Below are positions 9,224 to 23,943 of a stretch of DNA of 34,170 bases, in pieces. Position numbers and translations under genes: made by a program. Origin of the DNA: a virus; the IMG/VR virus record IMGVR_UViG_3300018019_000024, positions 1 through 34,170 of that record. One strand, given 5' to 3'. Each line of letters starts with the position of its first letter. Position 1 is the first letter of the stretch. Below the pieces are notes generated by a model. That model was not told where the DNA came from, did not search any database, and saw only the letters and a program-made list of their open reading frames with translations.

Positions 9224-11167
9224 TTAGTTGCTAGGCGGCGATTGCCCCGGTGTAGCGCCAACGGTCACTACAGTCGTGCCCCCTTGAAGGGTGAGAATAA
9301 AGAACCGCACGCTGGACAGATAGCGCACGCGCACCAGCACATAGCAGTAATGCTGCGCAACGCTTGTCGGCGTGTTGACGCCCTGGCCCGCGACTGCGTT
9401 CTGGCTGGCGTCGAAAGTACAGACCACCGCAAAGTCGTCGATCTGCCCCACGGTCCCGTTCGCCCCCTTGAGGCCTTGCAGGAAGGTGTTGAGCTGCAGT
9501 TTGACCGCATTGCGGAACGGGTCGTTGGGCTGCTGACTCTGCAGCTGGTCGACGAACACGCCCATGGCGGCCTGGAAACTGCGCGCCAGCCAGCAGGTCA
9601 TGCGCCAGTATTCGAACGGCTGCGTGACGCGCGTGAGCGACGTCGTCTGGCCGTGCCGTATGCCGAACACCGCGCCTGCCGGAATCGGGTTGGCAATGAA
9701 CATGACGCCGGCGCTGGCCAGCTGCCCGACCTCGGATTCGCTATACGGCACATTGCCCGTGGTCGGATTGTTGCGCTCGGTGCCGACCACCAGCGCGACC
9801 TGCTTATTGCCGGGCGACTGCGCCGGCGGCAGCGTGGTGATATAGCCGCCGATGTACGCGTTGGGCGACACCAGGCGCGTGATCGCATTGACCGGGTCGT
9901 AAAAGTACACCCAATCCTTAGTCCAGGCGAAAGCCGGGTCGTGCACGGCGACGGCCGACACTTGCGCGAGCGCGGCCGCGGTGGTGGTGCCCAGCGCCAT
10001 GGCCTGCAGCAGGCTGCAGCCATTAACCTGCGCGAACTGCAGCAGCGTCGGGGAAATGGTTATGTCGGTGCAGCCGACCAGCCAGACGACGCCGACTGCC
10101 GGGTTTTGGCTTTGCAGCGCGTACAGCCCGGTGGGCGGAATCACGCTGTTGCTGCCCAGCAGCGTTGCGGTGACGACGCCGGCGCGGCCGTCGGTGCCGC
10201 CGCTGAATGCGTAAGTACCGGGTGTCGGCGCCCCGACCGCCTGGTTATAGGCGCCAGCGGCAACGATTGCGGACGGCCCCTGGAAACCGGATATGCCGTT
10301 GGTGACGGCGGACGCGAGCGCTTTCCAGAATCCGGCCGCGGGGATATTCGCGTACAGCTCCTGCTGGCCGGTGGTCGGCAGGAAAATCCCCACATTGAAC
10401 GTATTGGTGGCCGCGCCGGCGCTGATCTGCACCTGGATGGCATTGCCGACCACGCCGGTAAAAATGCCCTTGAGCGTAATGCCGGTGCCGGACGCCGCCG
10501 CGGTGCCAAGCGTTGCCGTCGCGCTCGAGCCGCTGGTGCGGGTGTACGTGACCTGCGGCGACAGGGTGGTCGGCTGGTAGATCGAGCAGACCACGCCGGT
10601 GCTGCTGGCGAACAGGCCGGCCGCGCTAATGACGGCGTTGGCATTGACCGCGGTGGCCAGCTTGGCGGCGAGCGACGTCAAGGTGTCGCCGCTGACCCCG
10701 GGAATCGTCAGCGTGATCGGCGAGCCCGTCAGGGCGCTGGACGTGAAAGTGACAGAGAACGAATCACCCGAGACTGCCGAGCCGGTGAGCGTGACGGTTT
10801 CGGCGCCCGACGTGAGCGCGCCCGACAGCGGGCCCGACGCCGCGGTGTCGTTGCCGTCGGTGACGCGCACCGCCCAGCCCTCATTGTTCAAACCGCTGGC
10901 CTGGCCAAACGCAATCGCCAGGTCGGTCGCGATATCGTACGGGTCGGTGAGCGACGCGGCGCTGATCGGGCCGAAGGTCTGCAAAGCGTCAAACGGCGAG
11001 CCCAGGTGCTGGGCTTTGTTGACCGCGCCCCAGCTGGCGGTGCCGACCAGACCGAACACGTCGGTGGGCACCCCGCTGATATAGCCGGGCGGGTTTTGGA
11101 TCGCGATGTACAGGTCGTCGGCGGTCAGTGACGCAGGATTGAAGTTTGCGGCTGGAACGATTGGCAT
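9224..11167 (-). CDS. Contractile tail sheath protein with inserted recurrent domain
   Basis: 647 residues from the ATG at 11167. The N-terminus has PPGYISGVPTDVFGLVGTAS WG, the classical start of sheath proteins (P-G-v-y...). The C-terminal half has the conserved sheath core, including NPTTGNVPYSESEVGQLASA, GVMFIANPIPAGAVFGIRHG and the closing FEYWRMTCWLARSFQAAMGV. Between about residues 122 and 225 sits a copy of the module seen in other virion proteins here (TLTGSAVSGDSFSVTFTSSA, then GVSGDTLTSLAAKLATAVNA). In known sheaths this region carries variable surface-exposed insertion domains. Inference: the module decorates the outside of the tail. Confidence 0.88.
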   Translation of the reverse strand: MPIVPAANFNPASLTADDLYIAIQNPPGYISGVPTDVFGLVGTASWGAVNKAQHLGSPFDALQTFGPISAASLTDPYDIATDLAIAFGQASGLNNEGWAVRVTDGNDTAASGPLSGALTSGAETVTLTGSAVSGDSFSVTFTSSALTGSPITLTIPGVSGDTLTSLAAKLATAVNANAVISAAGLFASSTGVVCSIYQPTTLSPQVTYTRTSGSSATATLGTAAASGTGITLKGIFTGVVGNAIQVQISAGAATNTFNVGIFLPTTGQQELYANIPAAGFWKALASAVTNGISGFQGPSAIVAAGAYNQAVGAPTPGTYAFSGGTDGRAGVVTATLLGSNSVIPPTGLYALQSQNPAVGVVWLVGCTDITISPTLLQFAQVNGCSLLQAMALGTTTAAALAQVSAVAVHDPAFAWTKDWVYFYDPVNAITRLVSPNAYIGGYITTLPPAQSPGNKQVALVVGTERNNPTTGNVPYSESEVGQLASAGVMFIANPIPAGAVFGIRHGQTTSLTRVTQPFEYWRMTCWLARSFQAAMGVFVDQLQSQQPNDPFRNAVKLQLNTFLQGLKGANGTVGQIDDFAVVCTFDASQNAVAGQGVNTPTSVAQHYCYVLVRVRYLSSVRFFILTLQGGTTVVTVGATPGQSPPSN

Positions 11168-11182
11168 TGTTAAGTCCCCCGT

Positions 11183-12061
11183 CTAGCTTTCCAGAACTGC
11201 GTAAGCCGGCACCAGCGCCAGCACGGCGTACAGCACGTCCTGCGTCGTGATTGGATACTCCAATCGCGTCAGGAAGTCATGCCGATAAACGTCCTCGAGC
11301 GTGTCGTCCTCGATCGCATAATCGTTTTCCATGGTCAGGCGCGCCTGGGTGACGCCGTCGGCCAGCGTCGGCCCGAAATTGTCCTGCAGGCTGCCCAGCA
11401 GCGTGGTGATGGGCGACACCGCAATGGCGCGCGCGGGCTGTGTTTGGGTCCAGACCGTGATTTGCAACTGTGATTCGCGCCGCCCCAGCTCGCGTACCTG
11501 CGTGCCGCCGTTGCCGGTATAGCTTTGCAACGCCACCGGGCCGGCGGTCAGGTTGTTGAGGTGGACCGTCGCGCCCGTCGTGGTGGCGAGCAACCAGGTC
11601 GACAGCGTCGGGTCGGCGTTGATAAGCCCGGCCAGCCGGGTCGCCATGCTGCCAGGGGTGTCGCCGCTGACGGCGATTGCGACCACGGCCGCGGTTTTGT
11701 TGGGCGCGTTGGACTGCGGGGCCCTGGCGATCAGCGACACCGCGTCGCCGGCCGACACCGGGCCGCCCAGCGTCAGCGAGCCCGAATGAGTCGGCGGCAG
11801 CGTCGCCGGCGGATTGACCACGCTGGTGAGCGTCGCCGGCGTCACGATCCGGTTATAGGGGAAGGACGACCAGCGTGTGGTGTTGCGCCCCACCTTGCGG
11901 TCGTACACGCTTATCAGCGTGCCGCCGTTGCGCGCCAGGTTCTGCAGCGCCGTCACCGGCGGCCAGCCGACAGCGCACTGAATCGGTGCCAGCGCAATAC
12001 CGGTCACGGCAGCCGTCACCTGCTTCTGTAAAGCCGCCATGACGTCGTAAATCGTGGTCAT
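11183..12061 (-). CDS. Neck/tail completion-type virion protein with inserted recurrent domain
   Basis: 292 residues, ATG at 12061 in an ATGA overlap with the preceding gene. The start MTTIYDVMAALQKQVTAAVT, and the end (ENDYAIEDDTLEDVYRHDFL, then YPITTQDVLYAVLALVPAYA), belong to a fold placed next to the sheath. No exact family could be named. Residues about 95-185 hold the recurrent module (SGSLTLGGPVSAGDAVSLIA, then IAVSGDTPGSMATRLAGLIN). Location immediately before the sheath gene suggests a tail terminator or neck component. The role is inferred from position only. Confidence 0.6.
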   Translation of the reverse strand: MTTIYDVMAALQKQVTAAVTGIALAPIQCAVGWPPVTALQNLARNGGTLISVYDRKVGRNTTRWSSFPYNRIVTPATLTSVVNPPATLPPTHSGSLTLGGPVSAGDAVSLIARAPQSNAPNKTAAVVAIAVSGDTPGSMATRLAGLINADPTLSTWLLATTTGATVHLNNLTAGPVALQSYTGNGGTQVRELGRRESQLQITVWTQTQPARAIAVSPITTLLGSLQDNFGPTLADGVTQARLTMENDYAIEDDTLEDVYRHDFLTRLEYPITTQDVLYAVLALVPAYAVLES

Positions 12062-12861
12062 GGCTGGGCCACCTTGCGGTCGCACAGCAGCTGGTAGCCG
12101 ACCACGCCCGCCAGCTGCTCGTACGGACTGACCACGACATAGCGCGCGCCGTTCTGGTCAATGATCGCGTCGCCCTCGCGCGGCAGATAGCCGGGCAGCG
12201 GCGGCACGTAGAAAAACCAGTGCGTCGGCTTAAGCATGCCGGGCACACCGGGGCCGAAGATCGCTTCCCCCCGCCGGTGCGCACTGCCGATTCCGGCCGG
12301 CACCAGCGAAGCGCCCCCGGCCCCGGCACTCCCGAAGGCGAACGAGCCGCCCGCGAGGACCAATGGCTGGTCGTTGTCGTGTGTGCTTTCCCAGTATTGC
12401 GACCCGTCGCCCTGGACAGCCGGCGCGACGGCAGGCCGGTAAATCGTGACCAGGCGGTTAATCGTGCCGCCGACCGCCTTATTGACCGGCGGGTGCCAGG
12501 CCAGGCACATGCCGTTGAGCTCAATCGTGCCCGGTATGCTGGTCGCGCCGGCGCCGTAGCTGACGCCAGGCACATAGGCCGGGTCGTTGAGCAGGAAAAT
12601 ATCGCCCAGCACGAACGGGTCCATGTTGGCGACAATGTCGATCCACTGCGTGGTGTTCTTGAGCCCGGTCAGTATTTTGGTTTCGCCGGTTATCTTGCGA
12701 TAAAACAGCGGGAAGTTGCTCGCCACCTTGGCCCAACCGCCGGGGAAGTCGCCGGCCGAAGATCCAATAATCCGGAACGCGTTGTAGGGCGGCCCAAGCT
12801 TCCGCGCCGCGATGCCCTTGCCGCGGTCAATCTTACTTTGTACTGTCGCATAGCTAACCAT
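12058..12861 (-). CDS. Virion structural protein, head-tail connector region
   Basis: 267 residues, ATG at 12861. The sequence (RIIGSSAGDFPGGWAKVASN, FPLFYRKITGETKILTGLKN, then MDPFVLGDIFLLNDPAYVPG) is mostly beta and contains no enzyme motif. It ends SPYEQLAGVVGYQLLCDRKV. It overlaps the next gene by ATGA, so the two are translated together. The start codon overlaps, on the opposite strand, the ATG of the HNH gene at 12860. Position between the connector at 13407 and the sheath block suggests a head completion or neck protein. No confident family name. Confidence 0.55.
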   Translation of the reverse strand: MVSYATVQSKIDRGKGIAARKLGPPYNAFRIIGSSAGDFPGGWAKVASNFPLFYRKITGETKILTGLKNTTQWIDIVANMDPFVLGDIFLLNDPAYVPGVSYGAGATSIPGTIELNGMCLAWHPPVNKAVGGTINRLVTIYRPAVAPAVQGDGSQYWESTHDNDQPLVLAGGSFAFGSAGAGGASLVPAGIGSAHRRGEAIFGPGVPGMLKPTHWFFYVPPLPGYLPREGDAIIDQNGARYVVVSPYEQLAGVVGYQLLCDRKVAQP

Positions 12862-13402
12862 GGCGGGCCCCGCGATGCCGCGACCACAAAGACGGACAGA
12901 ATTGTCGGCTGATTATATTCGTTCGATTTTGGCCTACGACCCGCTCACCGGCGAGTTTCGATGGCGCCATAGAGATGATCGCCCAAAATGGTGGAATACG
13001 CATTATGCTGGCAAGATAGCTGGAACGATCGATGCCAATGGCTACCGGAGAATCTGCATCGACAACGGTTGCCGACACCTTGGCCAAAGACTCGCTTGGC
13101 TGATTATGACGGCGTTGTGGCCAATAAATGAAATTGACCACAAAAACACGGATAACGGCGACAACCGCTGGGACAATTTGCGCGAGGCGACGGAAGCCCA
13201 AAATAAAAGAAACAGACGCATGTTGGTTCGAAATGCGTCCGGGCTCAAAGGTGTTTGTGCACATAAAGGCAAGTGGCAGGCGACAATCTATGCCGAAGGC
13301 ATCAATTACTACCTCGGTCGCTTCGACACACCAAAAGCCGCGCACAACGCTTATTGTGCAGCAGCAAAACAGCTGCATGGCGAATTTGCACGCACTGCCT
13401 AA
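12860..13402 (+). CDS. Free-standing HNH homing endonuclease with AP2-like DNA-binding domain
   Basis: 180 residues on the plus strand. An N-terminal module (YIRSILAYDPLTGEFRWRHR) is followed by the HNH core LAWLIMTALWPINEIDHKNT, then DNGDNRWDNLREATEAQNKR. The visible residues are the D-H of IDHKNTD and the N of NLREAT. The C-terminal domain (SGLKGVCAHKGKWQATIYAE, then YYLGRFDTPKAAHNAYCAAA) is an AP2/ERF-type DNA-binding module. The start may be the ATG at 12860 or that at 12875. The gene is opposite to the virion operon and occupies exactly the gap between two structural genes, the usual footprint of a homing insertion. Confidence 0.88.
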   Translation: MAGPAMPRPQRRTELSADYIRSILAYDPLTGEFRWRHRDDRPKWWNTHYAGKIAGTIDANGYRRICIDNGCRHLGQRLAWLIMTALWPINEIDHKNTDNGDNRWDNLREATEAQNKRNRRMLVRNASGLKGVCAHKGKWQATIYAEGINYYLGRFDTPKAAHNAYCAAAKQLHGEFARTA

Positions 13403-13406
13403 CCAT

Positions 13407-14225
13407 CTATACATACGAAATGGCTCCCGTGCGCTGAGGTTGCTGACGCATATCCTTGTTCATCGGCGTGCCGAGGAAATCAGACAGCATTTGCCGCCAG
13501 TTTTCGTATAGGCTGCGGCGCTGCCCGGCCTCGTTGCTGCGGCCTTTCCAGACGTCGGCCTTGATCGTGTCGAGGTTTTGCGACGTGCTGGCATAGGCGT
13601 TCTCGAGCCCGTTCAAGATCGGGATATAGCCCCAGATCGTCGTGACGCCGTCCAGGCTGGTGTTGGGGTTGAGCTGCACGCCGGTTGCGGTCAGCTGCGG
13701 CGCCACCGCGCCAGTCCCGCTGCAGGTCAGCGTGAAATTGACCGGGCAGATAAACCCGACTTCCGGCACCGCGACGGCATTTTGCGAGAACGGGCCGGTG
13801 CCGTACGGCGACAGCCCCAGGATATTGGCGGCCTGCAGCGTCGCGTTGCGGTTGACGGCCGCGGTCAGCGCGTTGATCAGCGTAATGCGTGCGTCGTTGT
13901 CCGGCGGGTTGTTCAACGGTGCCGTGACGATCACGCTGACCGGGCTGCCCAGCGGGCCGCCGCTGAATGTCGCCGTCAGGGTGTCGCCGGTGTTGGGCTG
14001 CGGGCCGGTCAGCGCGACGGCGCCATAGGCCAGACCGGTCAGCCGGGCTTCCTCGTCCGGGTTTAGGTTGTTCATTTTGTATTCCAGGAAGCCGTAGGCC
14101 TGGAAAAACCGGTAACCGACCGCGCCCTGCGCCAGCGTGCCGCCGGCAGGCGATATGCGCAGCAGACCGGCGACCGGATAACCTAGATGGCGTCTTACGT
14201 CTGATTTTTGGGCTGCGGTCAGCAT
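13407..14225 (-). CDS. Head-tail connector protein with large internal insertion
   Basis: 272 residues from the ATG at 14225; a longer reading overlaps the zinc protein and was rejected. The N-terminus MLTAAQKSDVRRHLGYPVAG, with RFFQAYGFLEYKMNNLNPDE, and the C-terminus (NLDTIKADVWKGRSNEAGQR, then LYENWRQMLSDFLGTPMNK) match a common small connector-type protein. In ordinary homologues, as far as I know, these two parts are contiguous. Here residues about 70-200 are an insertion containing the recurrent module (TGPQPNTGDTLTATFSGG, then TLINALTAAVNRNATLQAAN). The family name is not certain. Confidence 0.6.
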   Translation of the reverse strand: MLTAAQKSDVRRHLGYPVAGLLRISPAGGTLAQGAVGYRFFQAYGFLEYKMNNLNPDEEARLTGLAYGAVALTGPQPNTGDTLTATFSGGPLGSPVSVIVTAPLNNPPDNDARITLINALTAAVNRNATLQAANILGLSPYGTGPFSQNAVAVPEVGFICPVNFTLTCSGTGAVAPQLTATGVQLNPNTSLDGVTTIWGYIPILNGLENAYASTSQNLDTIKADVWKGRSNEAGQRRSLYENWRQMLSDFLGTPMNKDMRQQPQRTGAISYV

Positions 14226-14232
14226 GGGGCTG

Positions 14233-14643
14233 CTACCCCACGCGCTTTTTCTCGGCGCCCTGTCCCGGCAGCGGGAATACAGTCTTGCAATGCGGGCAGC
14301 ACGCCATGCCGCCGGCCTGGCTGACCGGGCAAATCGGCGCCTGGCTCGCCTTGAGCTGCTCAATCTGTGCGTGGTCGGTCAGTACCATGGTGCGCTTGAA
14401 TTCGCCCACCACATTGCCCAGCAGGCATTTGAAGTCCTGCATGACCACATAGGGCTCGAACACCAGCGCGGCCGGCGCGCTTGGATGCACGACGACGTCG
14501 GCTGGCTTGTCCGGCGCGGCCGCGCGGACCTGCGCGGTGCCACAAGTCGGGCACGCGGCCTTCTTGTAATGCACCACGGCCCCGCACTGCGGGTTGGTGC
14601 ATGGCCGGAAGCCGACCGGAAGTCTGGTCGCGTGGTCCGTCAT
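14233..14643 (-). CDS. Small zinc-ribbon protein in the head gene cluster
   Basis: 136 residues, ATG at 14643 overlapping the preceding stop (ATGA). Two zinc-knuckle-like segments are present: CTNPQCGAVVHYKKAACPTCG-type cysteine spacing (C-x4-C then C-x2-C) near residues 15-35, and C-x8-9-CC-x2-C near residues 105-120. Between them lies VVMQDFKCLLGNVVGEFKRT. No enzymatic motif. The ATGA coupling to the decoration-like gene and position beside the connector suggest a structural or assembly role. No known family was recognised. The spacing supports metal binding, but this is inference. Confidence 0.6.
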   Translation of the reverse strand: MTDHATRLPVGFRPCTNPQCGAVVHYKKAACPTCGTAQVRAAAPDKPADVVVHPSAPAALVFEPYVVMQDFKCLLGNVVGEFKRTMVLTDHAQIEQLKASQAPICPVSQAGGMACCPHCKTVFPLPGQGAEKKRVG

Positions 14644-15902
14644 ACGATCGGTTCCCCGCTTGCCACCAGCGCCAACAGCAGCTGGTAGTCGACAAAATAC
14701 GGGTTGCCGTAGAAGAACGACCGCGCCTGGCCGTTATAGGCAAAGTCGAAATTGTTGGTGACCAGAATCGGGCCCGAGCCGTTGGCCAGCTTGCCGCTGT
14801 TGCTGAACGTCACGGTTTCGGTTTCGCCGTCGGTCGTCACGGCCGTGGTCGTCGGGTTGGCCGGCACGGTCAGTGACAGCGTGCCGGTGACGGATTCGCT
14901 GTAGCGCACCTGGCCAAAGCCGCCCGGGACCGTAATCGCGATGCTGCTGCCGGTGCGCAAGCCGGTAATGCCGGCCGCAGCCAGCACGGGGTCGCTGTTG
15001 ATTGCCGCGGTCAGGCCTGCGGCCGCCAGGGCGGTCGTGATATCGGTCGGCAGCGTGATGTAGGACACGGCGTGCGGGCTGCCGGGCAGATTGGCCGCGG
15101 TGAACGTCACCGTCAGCGTGTCGGCTGCGTCAGGCGTGGCGCCGACAACGACGGCCGGCGACGTTTTGTTGACCCAGCTGGTGACCGTGTAGTCGCCCGC
15201 CGGCACGCCGCTGATTTTGACGGCGCCGCTTGTGTCGGTGCCGATAATGCCCAGGCCGGCCAGGGTCGGGTTGGCCGCAATCGCCGCCACCAGGGCGTCG
15301 CCCATGTTGGTCGCGCTTTGCCCGGTCGTCGGCGCGGTCTGAATCACAACGCCGCCGCCCAGGCCGGGGCCGGTAAACAGCACGTTGACCTGGTCGCCCG
15401 TCAGCGCGGTGCCACCCAGCGTCACGGTCGCGCCCTCGCCGACGGGCGACGTCAGCACGGACAGATTGCCCACCGGGCCGGCGTGCTTGAACGTAATCAC
15501 GGCCTCGACGGCGTCGGCGCTGATATCGGCCTGCTGGGCGTTCAGGTTGTCGTTGAACAGCGTGGCCAGCTGCTCGGCGACCGCCACCAGGGTGTCGGTG
15601 CTGCTGACCAGATAGGTGACAGAGATTTTGGGCGGGCTAAGACCCTGCGCGGCCAGCGCGCCGTTGGTCAGGTCAATGGTGATTTCGTCGCCCGTGGTGA
15701 TGGTGCCGCCGATAGTCGCGGTCGCGGTCGCGGCGACGCGCGGGTTGGCCGCCAAAAAGTCGGCCGGCGACTGATTGCCACCGCCGGTGCTGTTGAGGCC
15801 GACCACGGGGGTATCGAAATTAGGCAGCAGCGTCGGGCGACGCGGCTGCACGGTGCCGACCGGCAGACCAGAAGGCGGGATTTGATCGTTGTTCGCAACC
15901 AT
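14640..15902 (-). CDS. Virion protein built mainly from three copies of the recurrent domain
   Basis: 420 residues, ATG at 15902. After a 55-residue N-terminal arm, three successive copies can be read at about residues 59-150 (TATIGGTITTGDEITIDL, then STDTLVAVAEQLATLFNDNL), 157-235 (TVTLGGTALTGDQVNVLF, then ATNMGDALVAAIAANPTLAG) and 255-328 (DAADTLTVTFTAANLPGSPH, then TTALAAAGLTAAINSDPVLA). The C-terminus (SFFYGNPYFVDYQLLLALVA) is distinct. It lies between the major capsid gene region and the connector, where decoration or fibre-like head proteins are often found. Function inferred as decoration or surface adhesion; no enzyme motif. Confidence 0.6.
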   Translation of the reverse strand: MVANNDQIPPSGLPVGTVQPRRPTLLPNFDTPVVGLNSTGGGNQSPADFLAANPRVAATATATIGGTITTGDEITIDLTNGALAAQGLSPPKISVTYLVSSTDTLVAVAEQLATLFNDNLNAQQADISADAVEAVITFKHAGPVGNLSVLTSPVGEGATVTLGGTALTGDQVNVLFTGPGLGGGVVIQTAPTTGQSATNMGDALVAAIAANPTLAGLGIIGTDTSGAVKISGVPAGDYTVTSWVNKTSPAVVVGATPDAADTLTVTFTAANLPGSPHAVSYITLPTDITTALAAAGLTAAINSDPVLAAAGITGLRTGSSIAITVPGGFGQVRYSESVTGTLSLTVPANPTTTAVTTDGETETVTFSNSGKLANGSGPILVTNNFDFAYNGQARSFFYGNPYFVDYQLLLALVASGEPIV

Positions 15903-15906
15903 GGCG

Positions 15907-16119
15907 TCAGCCCTTCTTGATCAGATTGCCGGCGTAGCGCGGCGTGGTCTTTTTCCCCATACGCACCCGCTCGGCTGCGCGCGTCATGCCCTGGCCACCG
16001 CTGACCTCTTTGTCCCAGTTGGGCGTGAAGCACTCGGTGCCGCCGAACGCTGGACCGGAGAACACCGCCGTGGTGGTGCGCTTTGGCGGCGCTATCTCTT
16101 TGGCCGGCTTGCCCGCCAT
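15907..16119 (-). CDS. Small basic hypothetical protein of the head cluster
   Basis: 70 residues, ATG at 16119, one base after the stop of the HNH gene and 4 bp before the next gene. The sequence is basic and Gly/Pro-rich (MAGKPAKEIAPPKRTTTAVF, then GGTECFTPNWDKEVSGGQGM). No domain recognised. It probably was adjacent to the 72-residue gene at 16772 before the HNH gene was inserted. Similar short basic proteins are common next to the capsid gene and may be minor head components. Function unknown. Confidence 0.55.
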   Translation of the reverse strand: MAGKPAKEIAPPKRTTTAVFSGPAFGGTECFTPNWDKEVSGGQGMTRAAERVRMGKKTTPRYAGNLIKKG

Positions 16120-16120
16120 G

Positions 16121-16771
16121 TCAGTTCAACCTTGCTCGTTCTCGGATTTCCGCAGCGCGATTTGGTACGAATTCCTCAAGCGTTTGATCGCGTTTACTCG
16201 AATTACACGGAATGCAGGCCGGAACGATATTGCCGACCTCTGTCTTTCCGTCACGCGACAGCGGCATCAGGTGTTCAAGGCTCAACTTAGTTTCGGTGCC
16301 ACAATATGCGCATGCGTGGTCAAACTCTTTGAGAAGCGCGAGCCAGTCGGCGCGGGTGAACTTGCCTTCGATCTGCGTCGCAGCCTGAATCACTCCATCT
16401 TTGTACGTTTCGGCACGCAGAATAGCGCGTTTCAGACGCCAGCGATCACGCAGAATCGGGCGCTGTTCCGGTCGTTTTGTATAAGTACGCATGTAGGCAG
16501 CGTGCTTTGCTCGCGCAGTCGGCGTCTTGCTGCGGCGACGGGCGCCAGCATTGTCTCTCTCTAGATTTCGCAGACGCCATGTGGCCATGCGAATTGTTCC
16601 ATCAGCTATGTCGCAAGATTTGCAAGATGAACGATAACCGCTTGGATCCTTTTTTGTGATCTTGCGCCGATAGAAGTCTGTTAGTGGCTTTTCTTCACCG
16701 CATCCTGGACAGCATTTCTTGCCACTCGATAGATCGAGAGCAGGCCGCCCAATTTTGCGGGAACAACCCAC
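16121..16771 (-). CDS. Free-standing HNH homing endonuclease
   Basis: 216 residues read from the GTG at 16771, which immediately follows the stop of the upstream gene. The N-terminus has a zinc-binding pattern (CCPGCGEEKPLTDFYRR, then YRSSCKSCD). The C-terminal HNH domain reads CAYCGTETKLSLEHLMPLSR, then DGKTEVGNIVPACIPCNSSK, with the C-x2-C pairs, the H of LEHLMPLS, the N of VGNIVPAC and a final CNSSKRD. It sits between two small head genes on the same strand and has lower GC than its neighbours. It likely spreads by cutting phage copies lacking it. Confidence 0.88.
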   Translation of the reverse strand: MGCSRKIGRPALDLSSGKKCCPGCGEEKPLTDFYRRKITKKDPSGYRSSCKSCDIADGTIRMATWRLRNLERDNAGARRRSKTPTARAKHAAYMRTYTKRPEQRPILRDRWRLKRAILRAETYKDGVIQAATQIEGKFTRADWLALLKEFDHACAYCGTETKLSLEHLMPLSRDGKTEVGNIVPACIPCNSSKRDQTLEEFVPNRAAEIRERARLN

Positions 16772-16990
16772 TCACGGACCTCCATATTTTTTCATCGGCT
16801 CCGTGTACTTTTCCGCGCTGCGGTCGCCCTCGTGCGCCATGCCGGGCGCAGTCTCAACTTTGCCGTCACCCGGCACGGTCATGGTCGGGCCGCCGCCGCG
16901 CTGTTGCTGCACGGAGATTTCCTCGGCGCCACGCCCTTTGCTGGACTGGCCCCTGAGGGACTTGGAGATATTCTTGCTGGGCGCCTTCAT
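16772..16990 (-). CDS. Small hypothetical protein downstream of the capsid gene
   Basis: 72 residues, ATG at 16990. The sequence (MKAPSKNISKSLRGQSSKGR, then GDGKVETAPGMAHEGDRSAE) is polar, Gly/Lys/Ser-rich and probably disordered. No family recognised. A strong hairpin at 17035-17060 separates it from the capsid stop. It is followed without a gap by the HNH gene. It may be a minor head protein or an assembly factor. Position is the only clue. Confidence 0.5.
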   Translation of the reverse strand: MKAPSKNISKSLRGQSSKGRGAEEISVQQQRGGGPTMTVPGDGKVETAPGMAHEGDRSAEKYTEPMKKYGGP

Positions 16991-17034
16991 GCTTTCGCTC
17001 CTGGGTCAATCCGTCTGTCGTCTTAGGCGTCAGT

Positions 17035-17060
17035 CCCCCGGGGCGTCGCCGTCCCGGGGG
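17035..17060 (-). terminator. GC-rich hairpin between capsid gene and downstream genes
   Basis: CCCCCGGGG at 17035-17043 pairs with CCCGGGGG at 17053-17060 across a 9-nt loop (8 bp without gaps). No T-run follows on the minus strand, so it is probably an attenuator or mRNA-stabilising 3' structure that limits read-through after the highly expressed capsid gene. It need not be a full rho-independent terminator. Confidence 0.5.
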
Positions 17061-17083
17061 TCGCCAGTTACCCCCGTAAGCCC

Positions 17084-18484
17084 TTAGCCGACGTGTTCCA
17101 GCACCAGGGCGCGCTTGAACAACGCGTTGCTGGCGGTCGGGATAATTGCCGTGGTCGCCGTGATATCGGTCGGCACCGCGAAGTCGCCCACCCAATTCCA
17201 CGACAGCGAGCAGACCTGCTGCAGGCGGTCGAGGGGCGGGCGCAGGATCTGTGCGACGCCGTTGACCAGGAACACCTCGCCGATCGCGTTGACGCCTTCG
17301 CGCGCCAGCCACGTCTCGAGGCCTTCGAAATCGCCCTGGATGATCGACTCGGCGCCCAGCACAATCGGGCGACGGATGCGCTGACTGATGACCGACAGAC
17401 CCGTGGCCGTGCTGGCCGCGTTGTAGGCGGCGCCGTTGTACTGCACGCCCGGGGGCTGCACGTAGGTTTCAGTCGTCGGGATGAACGTCACACCGAGCAG
17501 GCGGACAATGTCGCCGTCGCGGTATTCGCTGGCCCGGCTGTTGCCGGCAAACAGAACCTTGAAGTCCTGGTCGGCCCACAGCTGCCGCATGCTCGTGTTG
17601 TCGAGGATACAGTGATAGGTGCCGTCGGTCATGGGCGGCACGCCGTTGTCGCGCAGGTAGGCGAGCGCGTCTTCGACCAGGCCCATGGTCAGCATGTCGC
17701 TGCCCTGCAGCAACGCGGTGGTCAGGCGGGAGAACGGCCGTAGAATCTTCGGCCCGTTGAGCGCCGTCATGGCGTCGCCGTTAACCGGCGTGGTCGCGGC
17801 GGTGAACGTCAGGCTGCCCGAGATACCGTCGGGCGTGGTCGACTTGTTGGTGGCGTCCGCCGTCGCGGTGTTGACGGTCAGGGTCTGTGTCACGCCGGCG
17901 TTGCTGGCGGCCACTTCCTGCACGGTCAGCGGATTGCCGCTGCTGATAGGCGTCACGACGCCATTGACCAGCACGGTGGTGAAGCCCCGGATATCGTCAA
18001 GCCAACAGGTCGTGGTGCTGCCGGCGTTCAAGTCGGTGCGCACGCGGGAATTCCCGCCCAGGTAGGCGCTAAACAACTTGTAGCGGCAAATCCGCTCCAT
18101 GGACTGGGCGGCCTGCACGCCGTTGTTGCGGCTGTTGGCAATCAGCTGGTCGGCAATGCCGGCCAGTTCCTGCTGCATGTTGGTGTCGACGGTGTCGGCG
18201 TACGAGGCAATCGTGAAGCTGTACTGCTCGACCGAGAAGGTGGACGACGTCAGGCCGTTGTCCAGGCCAGTGTTGCTGGCCGGCGTCATTGGCGTGGTAA
18301 CCGGCGTTTTGCGGCCCTTGCGGGTCCGCGTCAGCGTTTCACCGATTCGCGACGGCACAGTCTCCTGCAGGGCCGCGCGCCGATAAGCCAGGATCGAATC
18401 CAGGCCTTCCTCAAGTTCGCGCTCCAGGAACCCCTGCTGCAGAATCGCGGCAAGCGCGGCGGGAAAATTGACGTATGAGCCCAT
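17084..18484 (-). CDS. Major capsid protein
   Basis: 466 residues, ATG at 18484 with GGGGGA five bases upstream. The N-terminus (MGSYVNFPAALAAILQQGFL) precedes a long helical arm with LDSILAYRRAALQETVPSRI. The core includes YTIASYADTV-type segments (QYSFTIASYADTVDTNMQQE), GVPPMTDGTYHCILDNTSMR, LFAGNSRASEYRDGDIVRLL and ITTAIIPTA-type ends, as in HK97-fold capsids. The middle (about residues 175-255) is Thr/Ala-rich and looks like an extra surface insertion. Size, position right after scaffold and its own promoter and leader support the call. No protease-type motif was seen in the window. Confidence 0.82.
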   Translation of the reverse strand: MGSYVNFPAALAAILQQGFLERELEEGLDSILAYRRAALQETVPSRIGETLTRTRKGRKTPVTTPMTPASNTGLDNGLTSSTFSVEQYSFTIASYADTVDTNMQQELAGIADQLIANSRNNGVQAAQSMERICRYKLFSAYLGGNSRVRTDLNAGSTTTCWLDDIRGFTTVLVNGVVTPISSGNPLTVQEVAASNAGVTQTLTVNTATADATNKSTTPDGISGSLTFTAATTPVNGDAMTALNGPKILRPFSRLTTALLQGSDMLTMGLVEDALAYLRDNGVPPMTDGTYHCILDNTSMRQLWADQDFKVLFAGNSRASEYRDGDIVRLLGVTFIPTTETYVQPPGVQYNGAAYNAASTATGLSVISQRIRRPIVLGAESIIQGDFEGLETWLAREGVNAIGEVFLVNGVAQILRPPLDRLQQVCSLSWNWVGDFAVPTDITATTAIIPTASNALFKRALVLEHVG

Positions 18485-18714
18485 GTGGGTCCCCCAAAGC
18501 GTGATTGATCGTTCCGGAAGGGACAGCGGCTGTTACCAGCGCGTCATGGGTGCCAGCACCCAGTCCCGACGATCATTCACGGCACCCAGGGGGGCGGGCG
18601 CGTGGGGGACAACGGCGATCTATCGCACGACCAACGTCACAAGGTCGGCCAGTCTCGGCCGGGACCCCAGGTTGCGCGCCTAGCCTGCTAGGCCGCGCGA
18701 GTCACGACACGCAA
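18485..18714 (-). promoter_or_regulatory. Structured 5' leader of the capsid transcript
   Basis: About 220 nt with no ORF I could support. It contains two strong inverted repeats. One is CCTAG-CCTG-CTAGG, extended by GCGCG-type arms, around 18675-18700, close to the predicted transcript start. The other is TGGGTGC-TG-GCACCCA around 18545-18562. These may stabilise the capsid mRNA or regulate its translation. Confidence 0.45.
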
Positions 18715-18744
18715 TCTATAGAGCCGATTTAATTCGATTGTCAA
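18715..18744 (-). promoter_or_regulatory. Sigma70-like promoter for the capsid gene
   Basis: On the minus strand TTGACA (18744-18739) and TATAGA (18720-18715) are separated by 18 bp. The -35 is a perfect consensus; the -10 matches four of six. It lies between the scaffold terminator and the capsid start and would put transcription start near 18708. This explains how the capsid can be made in excess of the upstream genes. Confidence 0.65.
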
Positions 18745-18750
18745 ATTGTG

Positions 18751-18789
18751 GAAAAGAAAACGGCCACGTCGGGTGTGAACCGGTGGCCG
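18751..18789 (-). terminator. Rho-independent terminator after the scaffold gene
   Basis: CGGCCAC (18761-18767) pairs with GTGGCCG (18783-18789), with further GGT/ACC pairs inside the loop. On the minus strand the stem is followed by TTTTCTTTTC (18760-18751). It is just upstream of the capsid promoter and separates the early head operon from the capsid unit. Confidence 0.75.
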
Positions 18790-18935
18790 CTTCCTTGACG
18801 CTCGCCCTTTGCCCATGTGGGGCCCGACTCGTGCCGGGGACGATACCAGACCTGGCCTGCCGTTTCCATGGCCGCGACCAGAAGCCACCGAAATGGCCGC
18901 GTTGTCCGTTGTCGTCGCGGGTGGCTGACACCCGG

Positions 18936-19592
18936 CTATTGGTTGCCCAGACTGCGCAGCGCGTCCTTTTTTTGCTGCTCGTATGCGCGCTTGCCCTCGG
19001 GCGTCTTTGGGATATCGCGCACGCTTGTCGTCGGCGGCGCGGCCCCAGGCGCTGGTGGCGGCAGCGGCGACCCGGTACTGGCGCGCACCGGCGCTGCAGC
19101 TGGCGCTGCGGCCGGCTTGAACCAATCGGGCTTCTTAGTCTTGCCCGCCGCAATCGCCTCGCTAATGCCGGTGAACGTGCCGGTGGCCGGGTCGTACGAC
19201 ACGGCCTTTTTATCAATCAGCGGCAGCAGGTCGAGGTCGGTCAGCCCGGCCTGTATGGCCGCGGCCTTAAGCTCGGCGTCGATCAGCTGCCTGCGCGTCG
19301 CCTGCAGTTCGGTGTTGCCGGCCTCGCGCGCGGTACGCTCGCGATTATCCGCCTCGGTCTTGAGTCGCGTGATTTCCGCGTTAGCCGCGTCGACCTGTTC
19401 CTTGGCGGTACGCGCCTCGACGCGATTTGCCGCAGCCTCGGCGCGTGTGTTCGCAACGGTGTTTTCCAGCACGGCAATGCGGTCCTGATCGGTCTGACCA
19501 GCTTGCCGCGGGGGTATCGGCGGCGCGACCGGCGGCACAACTGCTGCAGGCGGGGGTGGGGGCGGCGGCGGTGCATTATGGACGTCAGACAT
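18936..19592 (-). CDS. Capsid scaffolding protein
   Basis: 218 residues, ATG at 19592. The N-terminus is a Pro/Ala tract with eight consecutive prolines, followed by a strongly charged coiled coil at about residues 35-105 (IAVLENTVANTRAEAAANRV, then ITRLKTEADNRERTAREAG). Next come AAIQAGLTDLDLLPLIDKKA and GTFTGISEAIAAGKTKKPDWF, patterns common in phage scaffold proteins near the capsid-binding end. The Pro-rich tail follows. It directly precedes the major capsid gene, the standard place for scaffold. A hairpin and terminator follow the stop. Confidence 0.8.
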   Translation of the reverse strand: MSDVHNAPPPPPPPPAAVVPPVAPPIPPRQAGQTDQDRIAVLENTVANTRAEAAANRVEARTAKEQVDAANAEITRLKTEADNRERTAREAGNTELQATRRQLIDAELKAAAIQAGLTDLDLLPLIDKKAVSYDPATGTFTGISEAIAAGKTKKPDWFKPAAAPAAAPVRASTGSPLPPPAPGAAPPTTSVRDIPKTPEGKRAYEQQKKDALRSLGNQ

Positions 19593-19618
19593 TTGGGGCC
19601 TCTCTTGGGGTTAAGAGA

Positions 19619-19702
19619 TCATAGATACCGTTTACGCAAAAACCAAGCCAAAATCACCATGCTCGGCGCGCAGTATATCACGAATGCGTGCCAGATCGTC
19701 AT
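19619..19702 (-). CDS. 27-residue membrane peptide
   Basis: ATG at 19702 overlaps the stop of the Asp-box protein (ATGA) and a stop lies at 19619. The peptide reads MTIWHAFVIYCAPSMVILAW then FLRKRYL, one hydrophobic helix with a basic C-terminal end, as expected for a membrane peptide oriented with that end in the cytoplasm. The ATGA coupling argues for translation. No family; a role in the envelope or in coordinating the Asp-box protein is speculation. Confidence 0.5.
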   Translation of the reverse strand: MTIWHAFVIYCAPSMVILAWFLRKRYL

Positions 19703-21006
19703 GCCGCCTTGTCCAGATAGGCCGGGGTGTTGTCGTTCGATGCCGGGTCCAGGTCGCGGTTGAGCAGGTAGGGGAAATATCCCCACGCGAAGCCGTTGTC
19801 TTCGAACGCGATGTACCCGTAGCCATAAATGGCCATGTTGCCTTCGCAGTCCATGATCGGGTCGACGCTGTTGCGCGGCACCGCCGGCCCAACCATCGTC
19901 CAGGTCACGCCCTGGTCGGTGGACCGCCACATTCCATAGCCGGTTAAATCCGTTATGCCTCCACCCCACGACACAACATAAACTGAGGGATAGCTTTGCC
20001 CGGACGCGGGCGCACCGAAGCCGACGCACATCGGTTCTTTAATCAATGAACTTGAAATCGTCGCGAAGGTCGCGCCGCCGTCGGTAGAGTGGAACAGCGA
20101 ACTTGCCCCCGGATGCACCACCGTGCCGCCCCCAACGAGCCCTCCGGCGATCCATATGTCGTTCGCATTGCTAGGAGTCGCCTTCAATCTGATTATGTTG
20201 AACCCGAAGGCGTGATTGCCCATGAACGTGACGGTGCCGCCGCCGCCCGTCAGCTTGTAAATTCCGCTGCGGGAACTTGAGGGACTGGTTGCCGAATTGG
20301 TAGTGGCGAGGGCGATGTAGAACGTCCCCGCGGTCACGCGGTCCGCTGCGGTGGTGTAGTAGGGCCTATACGGCTGGATCAGATCGTTGTTGGAGTTCGC
20401 GTAGAGCGACACGAACAGGCTGTCCGCGCTTCCGCTGCTGGCCGACGTCGCGGCCGCCAGCAAAGTCACGGTGCCGGCGGCGCACGAAGACACCACGCCG
20501 ATAGTCTTGGGCGGGGAATAGGTGTAGTCGAAAATCTCGGCAGTGGGATAAATGCCGGCGCACGAGCCCCCGCTGATGGTCAGCGTCGTGTCGTGCAGGG
20601 CCCACGACGCGCCCGCCGTGACGGACACCGGATCGGCGACGCCGTTGAACAATAAATTGTCGCCGCTCGTAACGGTCGCCAGCGAGTTCGCGTTGAGCGT
20701 CAGCGTGGTGCTCGCGCAGCTCACTATCTGTCCGATGTTGACGGCGCCGCCGCCCTGAATGTCCCACGCCGTTTCGCCGGCGACCGCCTTTGAGCAAGAC
20801 CCGACCGTGAGCGTCGCGCTGCCGCTTGCCGAGGTGGCGCTCGCGGTCGTGGTCGCCGCCAGGCCCGACGTTGGGGTGGCGGCGGCGAGCGAAACGTGCG
20901 TCCACCCCGACCCGCCGGCCCCTACCCCGCCGTTCATGGTATAGAACGGAGCCGACAGGGCGTAGGTCAGAAGAATGTTCAGCGGCGTGCTGACGGCGAG
21001 GGCCAT
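19699..21006 (-). CDS. Asp-box/GH74-like beta-propeller protein
   Basis: 435 residues from the ATG at 21006. The C-terminal half has Asp-box-like repeats: SLFHSTDGGATFATISSSL, then GMWRSTDQGVTWTMVGP, with GFGAPASGQSYPSVYVVSWG and the final MDCEGNMAIYGYGYIAFEDN, the layout of xyloglucanase (GH74)/sialidase-type propeller C-termini. The N-terminal half is Thr/Ala/Ser-rich beta sequence. The catalytic residues of GH74 were not identified. It overlaps the signal-peptide gene by 28 nt in another frame. It may be a polysaccharide-binding or -cleaving tail-associated protein. A longer reading in this frame exists upstream but has a non-coding look. Confidence 0.6.
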   Translation of the reverse strand: MALAVSTPLNILLTYALSAPFYTMNGGVGAGGSGWTHVSLAAATPTSGLAATTTASATSASGSATLTVGSCSKAVAGETAWDIQGGGAVNIGQIVSCASTTLTLNANSLATVTSGDNLLFNGVADPVSVTAGASWALHDTTLTISGGSCAGIYPTAEIFDYTYSPPKTIGVVSSCAAGTVTLLAAATSASSGSADSLFVSLYANSNNDLIQPYRPYYTTAADRVTAGTFYIALATTNSATSPSSSRSGIYKLTGGGGTVTFMGNHAFGFNIIRLKATPSNANDIWIAGGLVGGGTVVHPGASSLFHSTDGGATFATISSSLIKEPMCVGFGAPASGQSYPSVYVVSWGGGITDLTGYGMWRSTDQGVTWTMVGPAVPRNSVDPIMDCEGNMAIYGYGYIAFEDNGFAWGYFPYLLNRDLDPASNDNTPAYLDKAA

Positions 21007-21503
21007 GCCGTATTGAACTTGGTTCGTGAAGTCGACGAGCCGGTCGCGATGCAATGCAGCGTCGTAACGCCGGTCGGAATCGTGAAAGCAAACCAGCCGC
21101 CGCCGGCCGTTATCTCCTGGTCGCTGGTCGTGGCGGCCACGCCATTGACGTTGCAATACATCGGGTTGGCGCCGACGTTCGACACTACCGTGACCGGGCC
21201 AGTCGGCAGCGTGCCGCTGCTGTCGGAGGTCGTGACCGACAGCGGCGTCATGCGCGCGCCGGTCACGCTGGGCGTAAAGCCGCCAAGGCTTGCCGACAGC
21301 GTACCAAACACTGGTATGCCGCCGCCGGCGCATGACGACGTGCCGTCGCTGTTGACGACCGGCACAGCCTTGCCGGTCGAGTTCAAGCAGTACAGCGACA
21401 CGCGCGCGGCGGTGCCGTCGTATTTTTGCTGCGCCTGGGCGGGCGCCACGAGGAAAAGCGCGGCGATCGCCGCACTGACAATGGCAGCCTGTAAGCATTT
21501 CAT
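20979..21503 (-). CDS. Signal-peptide protein with tail-fibre-type beta domain
   Basis: 174 residues from the ATG at 21503 (one base after the stop of the preceding gene). The start MKCLQAAIVSAAIAALFLVA then PAQAQQ is a clear Sec signal peptide with an AQA|QQ cleavage site. The mature part (RVSLYCLNSTGKAVPVVNSD, RMTPLSVTTSDSSGTLPTGP, VTVVSNVGANPMYCNVNGVA, then EITAGGGWFAFTIPTGVTTL) follows the pattern of a beta domain often found in phage fibre-associated proteins. It lacks a signal peptide there as a rule, so its presence is odd in a virion cluster. Cysteines may form disulfides after export. Confidence 0.65.
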   Translation of the reverse strand: MKCLQAAIVSAAIAALFLVAPAQAQQKYDGTAARVSLYCLNSTGKAVPVVNSDGTSSCAGGGIPVFGTLSASLGGFTPSVTGARMTPLSVTTSDSSGTLPTGPVTVVSNVGANPMYCNVNGVAATTSDQEITAGGGWFAFTIPTGVTTLHCIATGSSTSRTKFNTAWPSPSARR

Positions 21504-21504
21504 T

Positions 21505-22206
21505 TTATGCGGCTCCATTATAGATGGCCGACACGACGGCACCGCCGCCGGTCAGCGTCTTAAGGCGCGCCTTGATGTACGCCGTAGTAATGCTGACCTG
21601 CGTCAGCCCCAGCTCGGTTATGGGCGCCAGCAGCACGCCGTCGGTGCCGGCCGCAATGGTGACCGACTCATTCGCGCCGCTATTCAGCACTCCGGTCAGC
21701 AGCGTCGTATTGGCATTGGGCGGGCTGCTGGGCGTGCCGGGGAATACCGCCGAGGGAAACTGAATCGTTATGGCGCCCGCCAGATTGGTCGCCGTGATCT
21801 GCACGGCCTGCATGCCGGCATCGGCGTTGATTTTGGTCACCAATGCGGCGGCGATGCTGGTGAGACTGTCGCCGCTGACCACGGTGTGCGTCAGAGTCTT
21901 GCTGCCATTCGGCAAATTGGGATTGATAAAATCCAGGCCGACCAGATCGCCCGGTGTCGCCGTGCCGCCGATCGTCGCCGTGTAGGTATTAAGCGGCCAG
22001 CCCAGCGCGTTGGTGCCGAAAACGTCTATCTCGAGCGTCGAGATTGAACCAAACGCCTCGATTGAGCCGGTCTTGGCCCAGCCGGACGGAATCCACAGGC
22101 CCTCGACCGGCGTTGCCGCGACTGCGTCCAGCAATCGTGCCCTGATGCCGAAAGGACCGCCGAACGGCGCGGACTGGTATTCACTGACCGGCTGCGTGCG
22201 CAACAT
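21505..22206 (-). CDS. Virion protein with one copy of the recurrent domain
   Basis: 233 residues, ATG at 22206. The N-terminal 75 residues (MLRTQPVSEYQSAPFGGPFG, then STLEIDVFGTNALGWPLNTY) and the C-terminal 45 (LLAPITELGLTQVSITTAYI) flank a recurrent module at about residues 76-185 (TATIGGTATPGDLVGLDFIN, then TVVSGDSLTSIAAALVTKIN). The module is a close match to the copies in the sheath and in the gene at 14640. The protein has no enzyme motif and is probably a decoration or fibre-associated protein. It ends one base before the signal-peptide gene. Confidence 0.6.
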   Translation of the reverse strand: MLRTQPVSEYQSAPFGGPFGIRARLLDAVAATPVEGLWIPSGWAKTGSIEAFGSISTLEIDVFGTNALGWPLNTYTATIGGTATPGDLVGLDFINPNLPNGSKTLTHTVVSGDSLTSIAAALVTKINADAGMQAVQITATNLAGAITIQFPSAVFPGTPSSPPNANTTLLTGVLNSGANESVTIAAGTDGVLLAPITELGLTQVSITTAYIKARLKTLTGGGAVVSAIYNGAA

Positions 22207-23227: not shown

Positions 23228-23464
23228 TCAGGTGTCGCACGGCTTGTCGATAAACGCTGGCGGTAACTTACGACGCCGCGGTCGGAGAGGCCGGCCAAAC
23301 ACTGGCGCAATGCTGCGGTCGTGGCGTTCCATCCTATCCTCGTAGCTTTCCGCACGCACGATCGGCAGCAAAATCACCATCGCGGGCTGCTCGCGGCGCA
23401 CCGCCGGCGCGTAGGACGGCGCCCAGTCTGCAAACTGCACGACGTTACGGGCGCGCTTGCTCAT
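23228..23464 (-). CDS. Small hypothetical protein next to the IS left end
   Basis: 78 residues, ATG at 23464, which lies within or at the edge of the sequence shared with the second IS fragment. The sequence (MSKRARNVVQFADWAPSYAP, then ESYEDRMERHDRSIAPVFGR) is basic and lacks a known domain. Because the IS lies immediately upstream, the native ribosome binding site has probably been replaced or moved away, so expression now depends on IS sequence. Function unknown. Confidence 0.45.
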   Translation of the reverse strand: MSKRARNVVQFADWAPSYAPAVRREQPAMVILLPIVRAESYEDRMERHDRSIAPVFGRPLRPRRRKLPPAFIDKPCDT

Positions 23465-23482
23465 CGTGACCTCGGGCGGAAA

Positions 23483-23502
23483 CCCCGCCGTTCACGGCGG
23501 GG
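23483..23502. repeat. Left-end hairpin of the IS605-type element
   Basis: A perfect 8-bp stem with loop TTCA. The TnpA stop codon lies in the loop (23492-23494). TnpA of this family recognises such subterminal hairpins in single-stranded DNA. The second copy at 32651-32670 carries one change that turns a C-G pair into T-G. Confidence 0.85.
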
Positions 23503-23908
23503 AGGAAGCCCGTTGAGCTTCCACGTATCGCTTGACCCTCTCAAGCGGAGCGCCACCAGCACTGGCGGCAAAGTAGGACGGCGACCAAAGAACACCGCGC
23601 CAATAACGAGCAGCGATATCCCGACGCTCAAGTCTGAGCAGTCGCGACGATGTTCCCTTGAGGGCGTTAACCAAGGCGGAAACGGAGTGCTTCGGCGGGT
23701 ACTCAATAAGCAAGTGAACGTGATCTTTTTCGCCGTCACAGGCGATAAGCACACAATCCATTGCGGCGCAGACCTTGCCAAAATGGCCTTTGAGCCAATT
23801 GATCGCTGGATCGTCAAGGAGCTTTCGACGATACTTTGTAACAAATACAAGGTGACAGACCAACTTAGTGACGGAATGTCTACCCCTACGATATTCTGTC
23901 TTGTCCAC
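23492..23908 (-). CDS. tnpA: IS200/IS605 Y1 transposase TnpA
   Basis: 138 residues if started at the GTG at 23908, which has GGAGGG eight bases upstream; a further GTG at 23923 is possible. The family start YRRGRHSVTKLVCHLVFVTK, the HUH motif KDHVHLLIEYPP (H63, H65), and the tyrosine of RVKRYVEAQ (Y128) are all present. These make up the single-strand nuclease site of Y1 transposases. Length is normal for the family. It looks intact. It acts as a dimer that cuts and joins the element ends after hairpin recognition. Transcribed away from tnpB. Confidence 0.9.
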   Translation of the reverse strand: MDKTEYRRGRHSVTKLVCHLVFVTKYRRKLLDDPAINWLKGHFGKVCAAMDCVLIACDGEKDHVHLLIEYPPKHSVSALVNALKGTSSRLLRLERRDIAARYWRGVLWSPSYFAASAGGAPLERVKRYVEAQRASSPP

Positions 23909-23943
23909 TTGAAATCCCTCCACAGACCAAGTAGATAGTCTGC

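Follow-up and report, generated by a model that had tools for sequence, protein, structure and literature searches.

Phage sheaths and capsids commonly carry additional beta domains, whose purpose is still debated, the candidates being adhesion, stability or nothing at all. A sheath domain of the type considered here is lateral and has no direct role in contraction (PMC12846349), and additional sheath domains are thought to aid adhesion or stability (PMC9230969). Different phages and bacteria have already been described as sharing the fold, which recurs in their sheaths, nozzles, auxiliary capsid proteins, flagellin and FliD (PMC12846349, PMC10172136, PMC10457771). The present analysis concerns a module of ~100 residues that occurs in seven copies in five virion proteins encoded on the minus strand of the IMG/VR virus record IMGVR_UViG_3300018019_000024, which comes from an uncultured phage and was analyzed here in its entirety (34,170 bases; the window). 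The module resembles the lateral domain of type-2 myophage sheaths (PhiTE, Sf14, Adele, A-1(L), Milano, 7-7-1 and Mu) in its fold, helix and length, and the modelled copies match that stretch of the sheath. We consider it probable (about 0.6) that a domain of this lateral type entered loops in several head, neck and sheath proteins that are unrelated to one another, where it would act as a passive outward coat.

Seven homologous modules in five virion proteins

The minus strand of the window carried a myophage virion cassette with genes for the terminase (phrog_38), portal, scaffold, major head protein (phrog_1357) and sheath, among others. The closest cultured relatives by head protein (41.7%) were phages of Komagataeibacter. 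Five genes of the cassette bore the module, two of which are named here by their first coordinate:

9224..11167, minus strand: tail sheath gene (phrog_279 tail sheath, E 1.1e-6; solved sheath 8bky, E 4e-8)
11183..12085, minus strand: neck gene (phrog_13532, a family without known function, E 1.5e-16; start probably 12061)
13407..14363, minus strand: connector-like gene (phrog_14539, a family without known function, E 7.6e-17; start probably 14225, M47)
14640..15902, minus strand: three-module gene (14640 protein; N-terminal core, three modules, C-terminal core)
21505..22206, minus strand: 21505 gene, between portal and scaffold (module flanked by a conserved N-terminal part and by a conserved C-terminal part that has YIKARL.TLTG)

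Among the five proteins, the identity of the sheath is secure. "Neck" and "connector" are labels given from the sequence by the initial annotation and are kept as names, not as established functions, while the 14640 and 21505 proteins had no whole-protein family. The open reading frames (ORFs) of the connector and neck probably begin too early, their orthologues starting at the later positions given above. The modules were located as follows, with one copy in each protein except the 14640 protein, which had three:

10490..10807, minus strand: sheath module, residues 121-226 (profile E 1.9e-26)
11468..11788, minus strand: neck module, residues 100-206 of the GTG ORF (held-out seed E 3.1e-8)
13674..14027, minus strand: connector module, residues 113-230 of the TTG ORF, or 67-184 from M47 (held-out seed E 4.9e-7)
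15426..15731, minus strand: 14640 protein, module 1, residues 58-159 (profile search and AlphaFold model)
15150..15437, minus strand: 14640 protein, module 2, residues 156-251 (interrupted in relatives L013 and L014, where another module is nested within it)
14847..15164, minus strand: 14640 protein, module 3, residues 247-352 (VIA-align Z 12.6 to PhiTE sheath 84-177)
21643..21990, minus strand: 21505 protein module, residues 73-188 (profile search; PHROG tail-sheath family phrog_165, E 0.0018)

BLASTP among 26 window proteins interlinked the five module proteins, and the sole other link, between the capsid protein and the 23461 protein, was weak (E 0.04). When searched against its own record, the full sheath matched the 21505 protein and two copies in the 14640 protein, with E-values of 1.5e-6 (21505), 1.2e-4 and 9e-4. 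A profile seeded with five copies (from the sheath, 21505 and 14640 proteins), the neck and connector being left out, recovered both held-out copies, at the E-values listed above, plus the orthologues of both. After iteration, the profile detected all seven window copies at about 2e-19 or better, and a whole-record search returned the identical seven places. Among 15,309 reversed or shuffled control sequences, the seed had no match and the iterated profile had one, to a reversed sequence (E 0.017). Seven family profiles, each built from orthologues alone, were aligned pairwise with HHalign, and all 21 family pairs gave P between 3e-4 and 2e-24, the weakest being connector/neck and connector/first 14640 copy; the strongest reversed or unrelated control reached P 0.0018. 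Aspartate and leucine positions were conserved across the modules. The initial annotation had proposed one module in at least five virion proteins; all five proteins and all seven copies were recovered, with refined boundaries, and the copies detected one another by profile far above the controls.

Matches to known families were weak, with 10 of 51 modules matching the tail-sheath family phrog_165 (best E 0.0004) and 17 of 51 the neck family phrog_13532. Pfam scans of single modules returned only weak or sub-threshold matches to unrelated families. Membership of the LysM family (PF01476), suggested by the motif SGDSLTSIA, was dropped, with a best score of 19.8 bits against a cut-off of 20.9 and coverage of profile positions 1-27 of 43 only. 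No match was found with tblastn searches of a phage collection using the neck, the 14640 protein and the module consensus, which is not evidence of absence because the low-complexity filter probably masks these queries.

AlphaFold (AF2) models were made for the 14640 protein and the connector (from M47), using alignments of eight orthologues. The overall predicted local distance difference test (pLDDT) scores were 60 and 67, and module stretches mostly scored 60 to 91. In both models the four copies showed the same order of three strands, a long helix, a short helix and three strands; the three 14640 copies, mostly at pLDDT 60-88, had this strand and helix order in common, and the connector module was placed between helices 56-63 and 200-216. 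The modelled copies formed a beta-sandwich with about seven strands and a single flanking helix, as in the lateral domain of type-2 sheaths.

The third 14640 copy and the connector copy independently picked one stretch of tail sheaths, namely PhiTE 84-177 (Z 12.6 over 92 residues at 1.8 Å for the 14640 copy; Z 11.2 over 90 residues at 2.1 Å for the connector), A-1(L) 94-183 (Z 11.9 and 10.6, respectively) and Milano 95-196 (Z 9.3 and 7.5), with Mu 101-214 matched by the connector copy (Z 9.2). Looser structural matches, at Z 5 to 11, included T7-type nozzle, flagellin, FliD and crAss001 auxiliary capsid domains. Against PDB sequences, the module profile ranked three sheaths among its best hits, at the lateral-domain stretch but with modest E-values (9hz7, E 0.0075; 9cb9, E 0.032; 8fop, E 0.29), and a LysM protein stood above them (E 0.0006). 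In the window sheath the module is inserted at residues 121-226, after the VRV strand, a place that would correspond to chain positions 84-196 in the solved sheaths. The single fold expected by the initial annotation was found in both proteins modelled (four copies). Neither outcome that would have refuted the proposal, unrelated folds or copies that fail to detect one another, appeared, folds being compared in these two proteins. On this modelling, the module forms a beta-sandwich that stands on its own and has one helix, of the kind seen as a lateral "additional" domain in two-domain myophage sheaths.

Empty sites and copying between genes

About sixty relatives had a short connector, mostly of 125-140 amino acids (aa), that lacked the module, its alignment to the window protein ending at about residue 68 and resuming after residue 190. 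Komagataeibacter phage phiKX1 was among these relatives, as were loci in genomes of Acetobacteraceae. The family phrog_14539 (133 positions) fits the module-free connector end to end, whereas the window protein has a 118-residue insertion. When a tree was built from the major head protein, the 15 connectors with the module and the 49 without it fell on two sides of one branch (approximate likelihood-ratio test 99; unrooted). The labels "sheath=" on this tree were not used, being confounded by the 14640 protein, which matched the sheath profile through its module.

Empty sites were also found in two other proteins. In the sheaths of relatives L035, L047 and L106, the profile match ran to position about 120 and resumed from 235, so that the module was exactly skipped, and L018 had the same gap. 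Sheaths of 594-760 aa from the same lineage (L031:12826-15108, L106:15735-17657 and L042:4729-6513) bore extra sequence that the module profile did not recognize, so other kinds of sheath addition occur too. A homologue of the 14640 protein with 106 aa (L106:12144-12464) consisted of the N- and C-terminal cores with zero modules. Small ORFs of 80-90 aa after the head gene of other relatives (L096:5147; L097:4044 and 4293) matched or resembled the C-terminal part of the 14640 protein, with which they had the C-terminal pattern F.W.G...F..G..Y.L in common; a neighboring zinc-ribbon-like gene of the window (14233-14643) may carry a similar tail.

In module-poor relatives, the neck retained a diverged module at the equivalent place (HHalign P 5e-7), and members of the neck family phrog_13532, which includes the window neck, carry a diverged module. 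Because module-poor relatives still carry it, the copy in the neck probably predates the others in this lineage and looks ancestral rather than newly gained. "Neck" ORFs of 350-640 aa in some relatives are probably start-codon overextensions from ORF calling.

When 54 modules, taken from the window and from eight relatives, were placed in a tree, they grouped first by gene and position, and most pairs of orthologous copies were about 40-60% identical. Three exceptions pointed to copying. An extra N-terminal module in the L011 neck (neck_71) fell in the sheath clade, with 55% identity to the L017 sheath module, and the second sheath module of L013 (sheath_222) fell within a subtype of the 14640-type clade. 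In L013 and L014, the 14640 orthologue had its second module interrupted, after the second strand, by a nested module of that same subtype. The number of copies varied among relatives, being 1, 3, 4 or 5 per 14640 orthologue (0 in L106), 0, 1 or 2 per sheath and 1 or 2 per neck. Relatives of 73, 72 and 80 kb had nine, nine and seven copies, respectively, and whole-record searches of these three revealed none outside the same five genes.

No within-genome homogenization was detected, modules from one phage resembling one another across genes no more than they resembled those from other phages (547 of 1000 permutations reached the observed likeness), nor were long DNA repeats, sought as a sign of recent gene conversion, found between the window's module genes. 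Because the modules group by gene and homogenization was not seen, the window's own copies appear to be old and mostly inherited along with their genes. Separately, in L011 a 31-nt stretch of the 21505-type module (L011:6754-6784) was 94% identical in DNA to one in the third 14640-type module (L011:13601-13631), possibly a small gene-conversion tract. The initial annotation had described a module inserted in different proteins and copied between virion genes. The first claim agrees with the clean empty sites for the connector, sheath and 14640 protein; the second is supported by the cross-gene copies in the L011 neck and L013 sheath, with the qualification that the window's own copies are old and mostly inherited.

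Possible role of the module

The composition of the modules was strongly biased (threonine plus serine 24%, alanine plus glycine 27%, lysine plus arginine 1.7%, aspartate plus glutamate 5.0%, aromatics 4.2%), the cores having 8.2% aromatics and 7.3% lysine plus arginine. Conserved positions mostly looked structural, and no conserved aromatic or charged patch was found across the modules. Compared with one near-identical strain, the modules differed by six nonsynonymous (N) and four synonymous (S) changes and the cores by 4 N and 21 S (Fisher p 0.016), a small replacement excess in a single strain pair that fits relaxed constraint or diversification. Among orthologues, the modules diverged faster than the cores in the connector, sheath and 14640 protein, but not in the neck and 21505 protein. 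Since the modules are poor in charge and aromatics, most remaining conserved positions look structural and the replacement excess is small, a passive outer decoration that may add bulk and weak contact is favored. Surface display is plausible only by analogy with solved sheaths, in which the domain is lateral.

The module would have spread through duplication and recombination within the genome of this phage clade, with an old copy in the neck protein first, followed by copies in the connector, sheath, 14640 and 21505 proteins and later by tandem, nested and cross-gene copies. By the same analogy, the modules would face outward as a passive lateral coat around the neck, sheath and possibly the head, giving bulk and weak side-to-side or host-surface contact while being dispensable for assembly and contraction. 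A virion would bear a hundred or more copies if its sheath consists of stacked hexamers as in other myophages. More tentatively, and at rather less than even odds, a portable domain may have colonized the virion genes of one lineage, and even itself, so that unrelated proteins display one surface unit and the particle has a uniform coat.

Several points weigh against the passive coat of inserted domains. The models are shallow, with eight sequences and the low overall pLDDT given above, and cover two of the five proteins (14640 and connector). Foldseek E-values were weak (0.05-0.2), though the probability for sheaths was 0.96-0.99. A module-free orthologue of the 21505 protein was not found among the relatives. 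The neck-first direction rests on the diverged neck copy and the unrooted split of the capsid tree, and module loss in the module-free group may be an alternative to gain.

One alternative is that the modules are adhesion domains, binding weakly to cell-surface sugars or other groups and giving a multivalent grip before receptor binding, an idea put forward for additional domains of sheaths and for the Ig-like domains of phages (PMC9230969). The replacement excess in the modules would suit this, yet it comes to only a few changes in a single strain and relaxed constraint fits equally well, while faster module divergence is absent in two of the proteins. Pfam scans of the modules gave no carbohydrate-binding family above cut-off, no aromatic or charged surface is conserved, and the 72-80 kb relatives had no copy beyond the five genes. 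Specific adhesion is possible, without support from any residue pattern, and we regard it on balance as unlikely. Similarly doubtful is a role as cement, in which neighboring modules on the sheath, neck and head would touch and stiffen the particle. Such a role has been suggested for the same or similar domains on the sheath of phage 812 and the capsid surface of crAss001 (PMC9230969, PMC10172136), and the modules do sit in neighboring virion proteins, but relatives differ in their number of copies, and some sheaths and connectors of the same lineage lack the module.

Slightly less probable is that most of the copies have no dedicated function: the domain is stable, and its Thr/Ala/Gly-rich, repetitive coding sequence would be readily duplicated into tolerant loops and persist there as neutral. 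The variable copy number and insertion sites, the nested and tandem copies and the relaxed replacement pattern are consistent with this explanation. However, orthologues of the copies persist in the five genes throughout the clade at the identities given above, and none of the 15 connectors scored in the clade of the connector copy lacked it, which speaks for maintenance by selection. Convergent or merely compositional likeness of Thr/Ala-rich beta proteins, to which the biased composition and the chance matches to LysM and other families might point, is highly improbable given that reversed and shuffled controls of the same composition fail, that the aspartate and leucine positions are conserved and that a strong and a weak copy have the same structural matches.

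Neighboring genes and comparison with described domains

Three other features of the window were noted. Two ORFs resembling HNH endonucleases by eye, at 12860-13402 (plus strand) and 16121-16771 (minus strand), were inside the virion cassette and adjoined module-bearing genes, the former on the opposite strand between the connector and the 12058 gene. A 599-aa ORF at 19699-21498 (minus strand), between the scaffold and the 21505 gene, had a weak BNR/Asp-box repeat (E 0.002); it overlapped the other-frame ORF 20979-21542, and its N-terminal part appears out of frame. A 143-aa ORF at 23492-23923 (minus strand), an alternative frame of ORF 23461-24906, resembled by eye an IS200/IS605-type transposase.

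The same general architecture of beta-sandwich plus helix is found in the FD domain of gp36, the auxiliary capsid protein of crAss001, the T7-type nozzle insertion, the insertion domain (InD) of the XM1 sheath, flagellin D2 and FliD D2/D3, most of which are listed together in PMC12846349. The XM1 domain, likened to FliD (PMC10457771), was absent from the structural matches. Flagellin FliC (4nx9; Z 9.8 and 8.3) and FliD (5fhy; Z about 6) were matched in structure, while a PDB profile search gave no sequence match of the module profile to flagellin or FliD, nozzle or crAss001 domains. The Ig-like domains of tailed phages are likewise promiscuous beta domains on diverse virion proteins for which weak adhesion has been proposed (Fraser et al., 2006, cited in PMC9230969). 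In the models, the module differs from these in that a long helix separates strands 3 and 4. Antibody structures were matched at Z 5.5-5.8, spanning two modules, and no Pfam Ig family was listed.

Gene trees and empty sites show here the copying of a domain between virion genes, which is usually inferred from folds alone. The clade forms a natural series in the number of copies per sheath and per 14640 orthologue, and Komagataeibacter phages phiKX1 and phiKX2 provide module-poor cultured relatives for comparison, so that the purpose of the domain becomes testable. No description was found of one lineage with sequence-recognizable copies in five virion genes, empty sites and cross-gene copies, in a search that mostly did not reach subscription journals and so does not prove novelty. 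Earlier publications already cover the fold and show it in several virion proteins from different phages; what appears to be new is the multi-gene expansion within one clade. Type-2 sheath phages have one described copy, in the sheath, whereas the window has seven sequence-homologous copies in five proteins.

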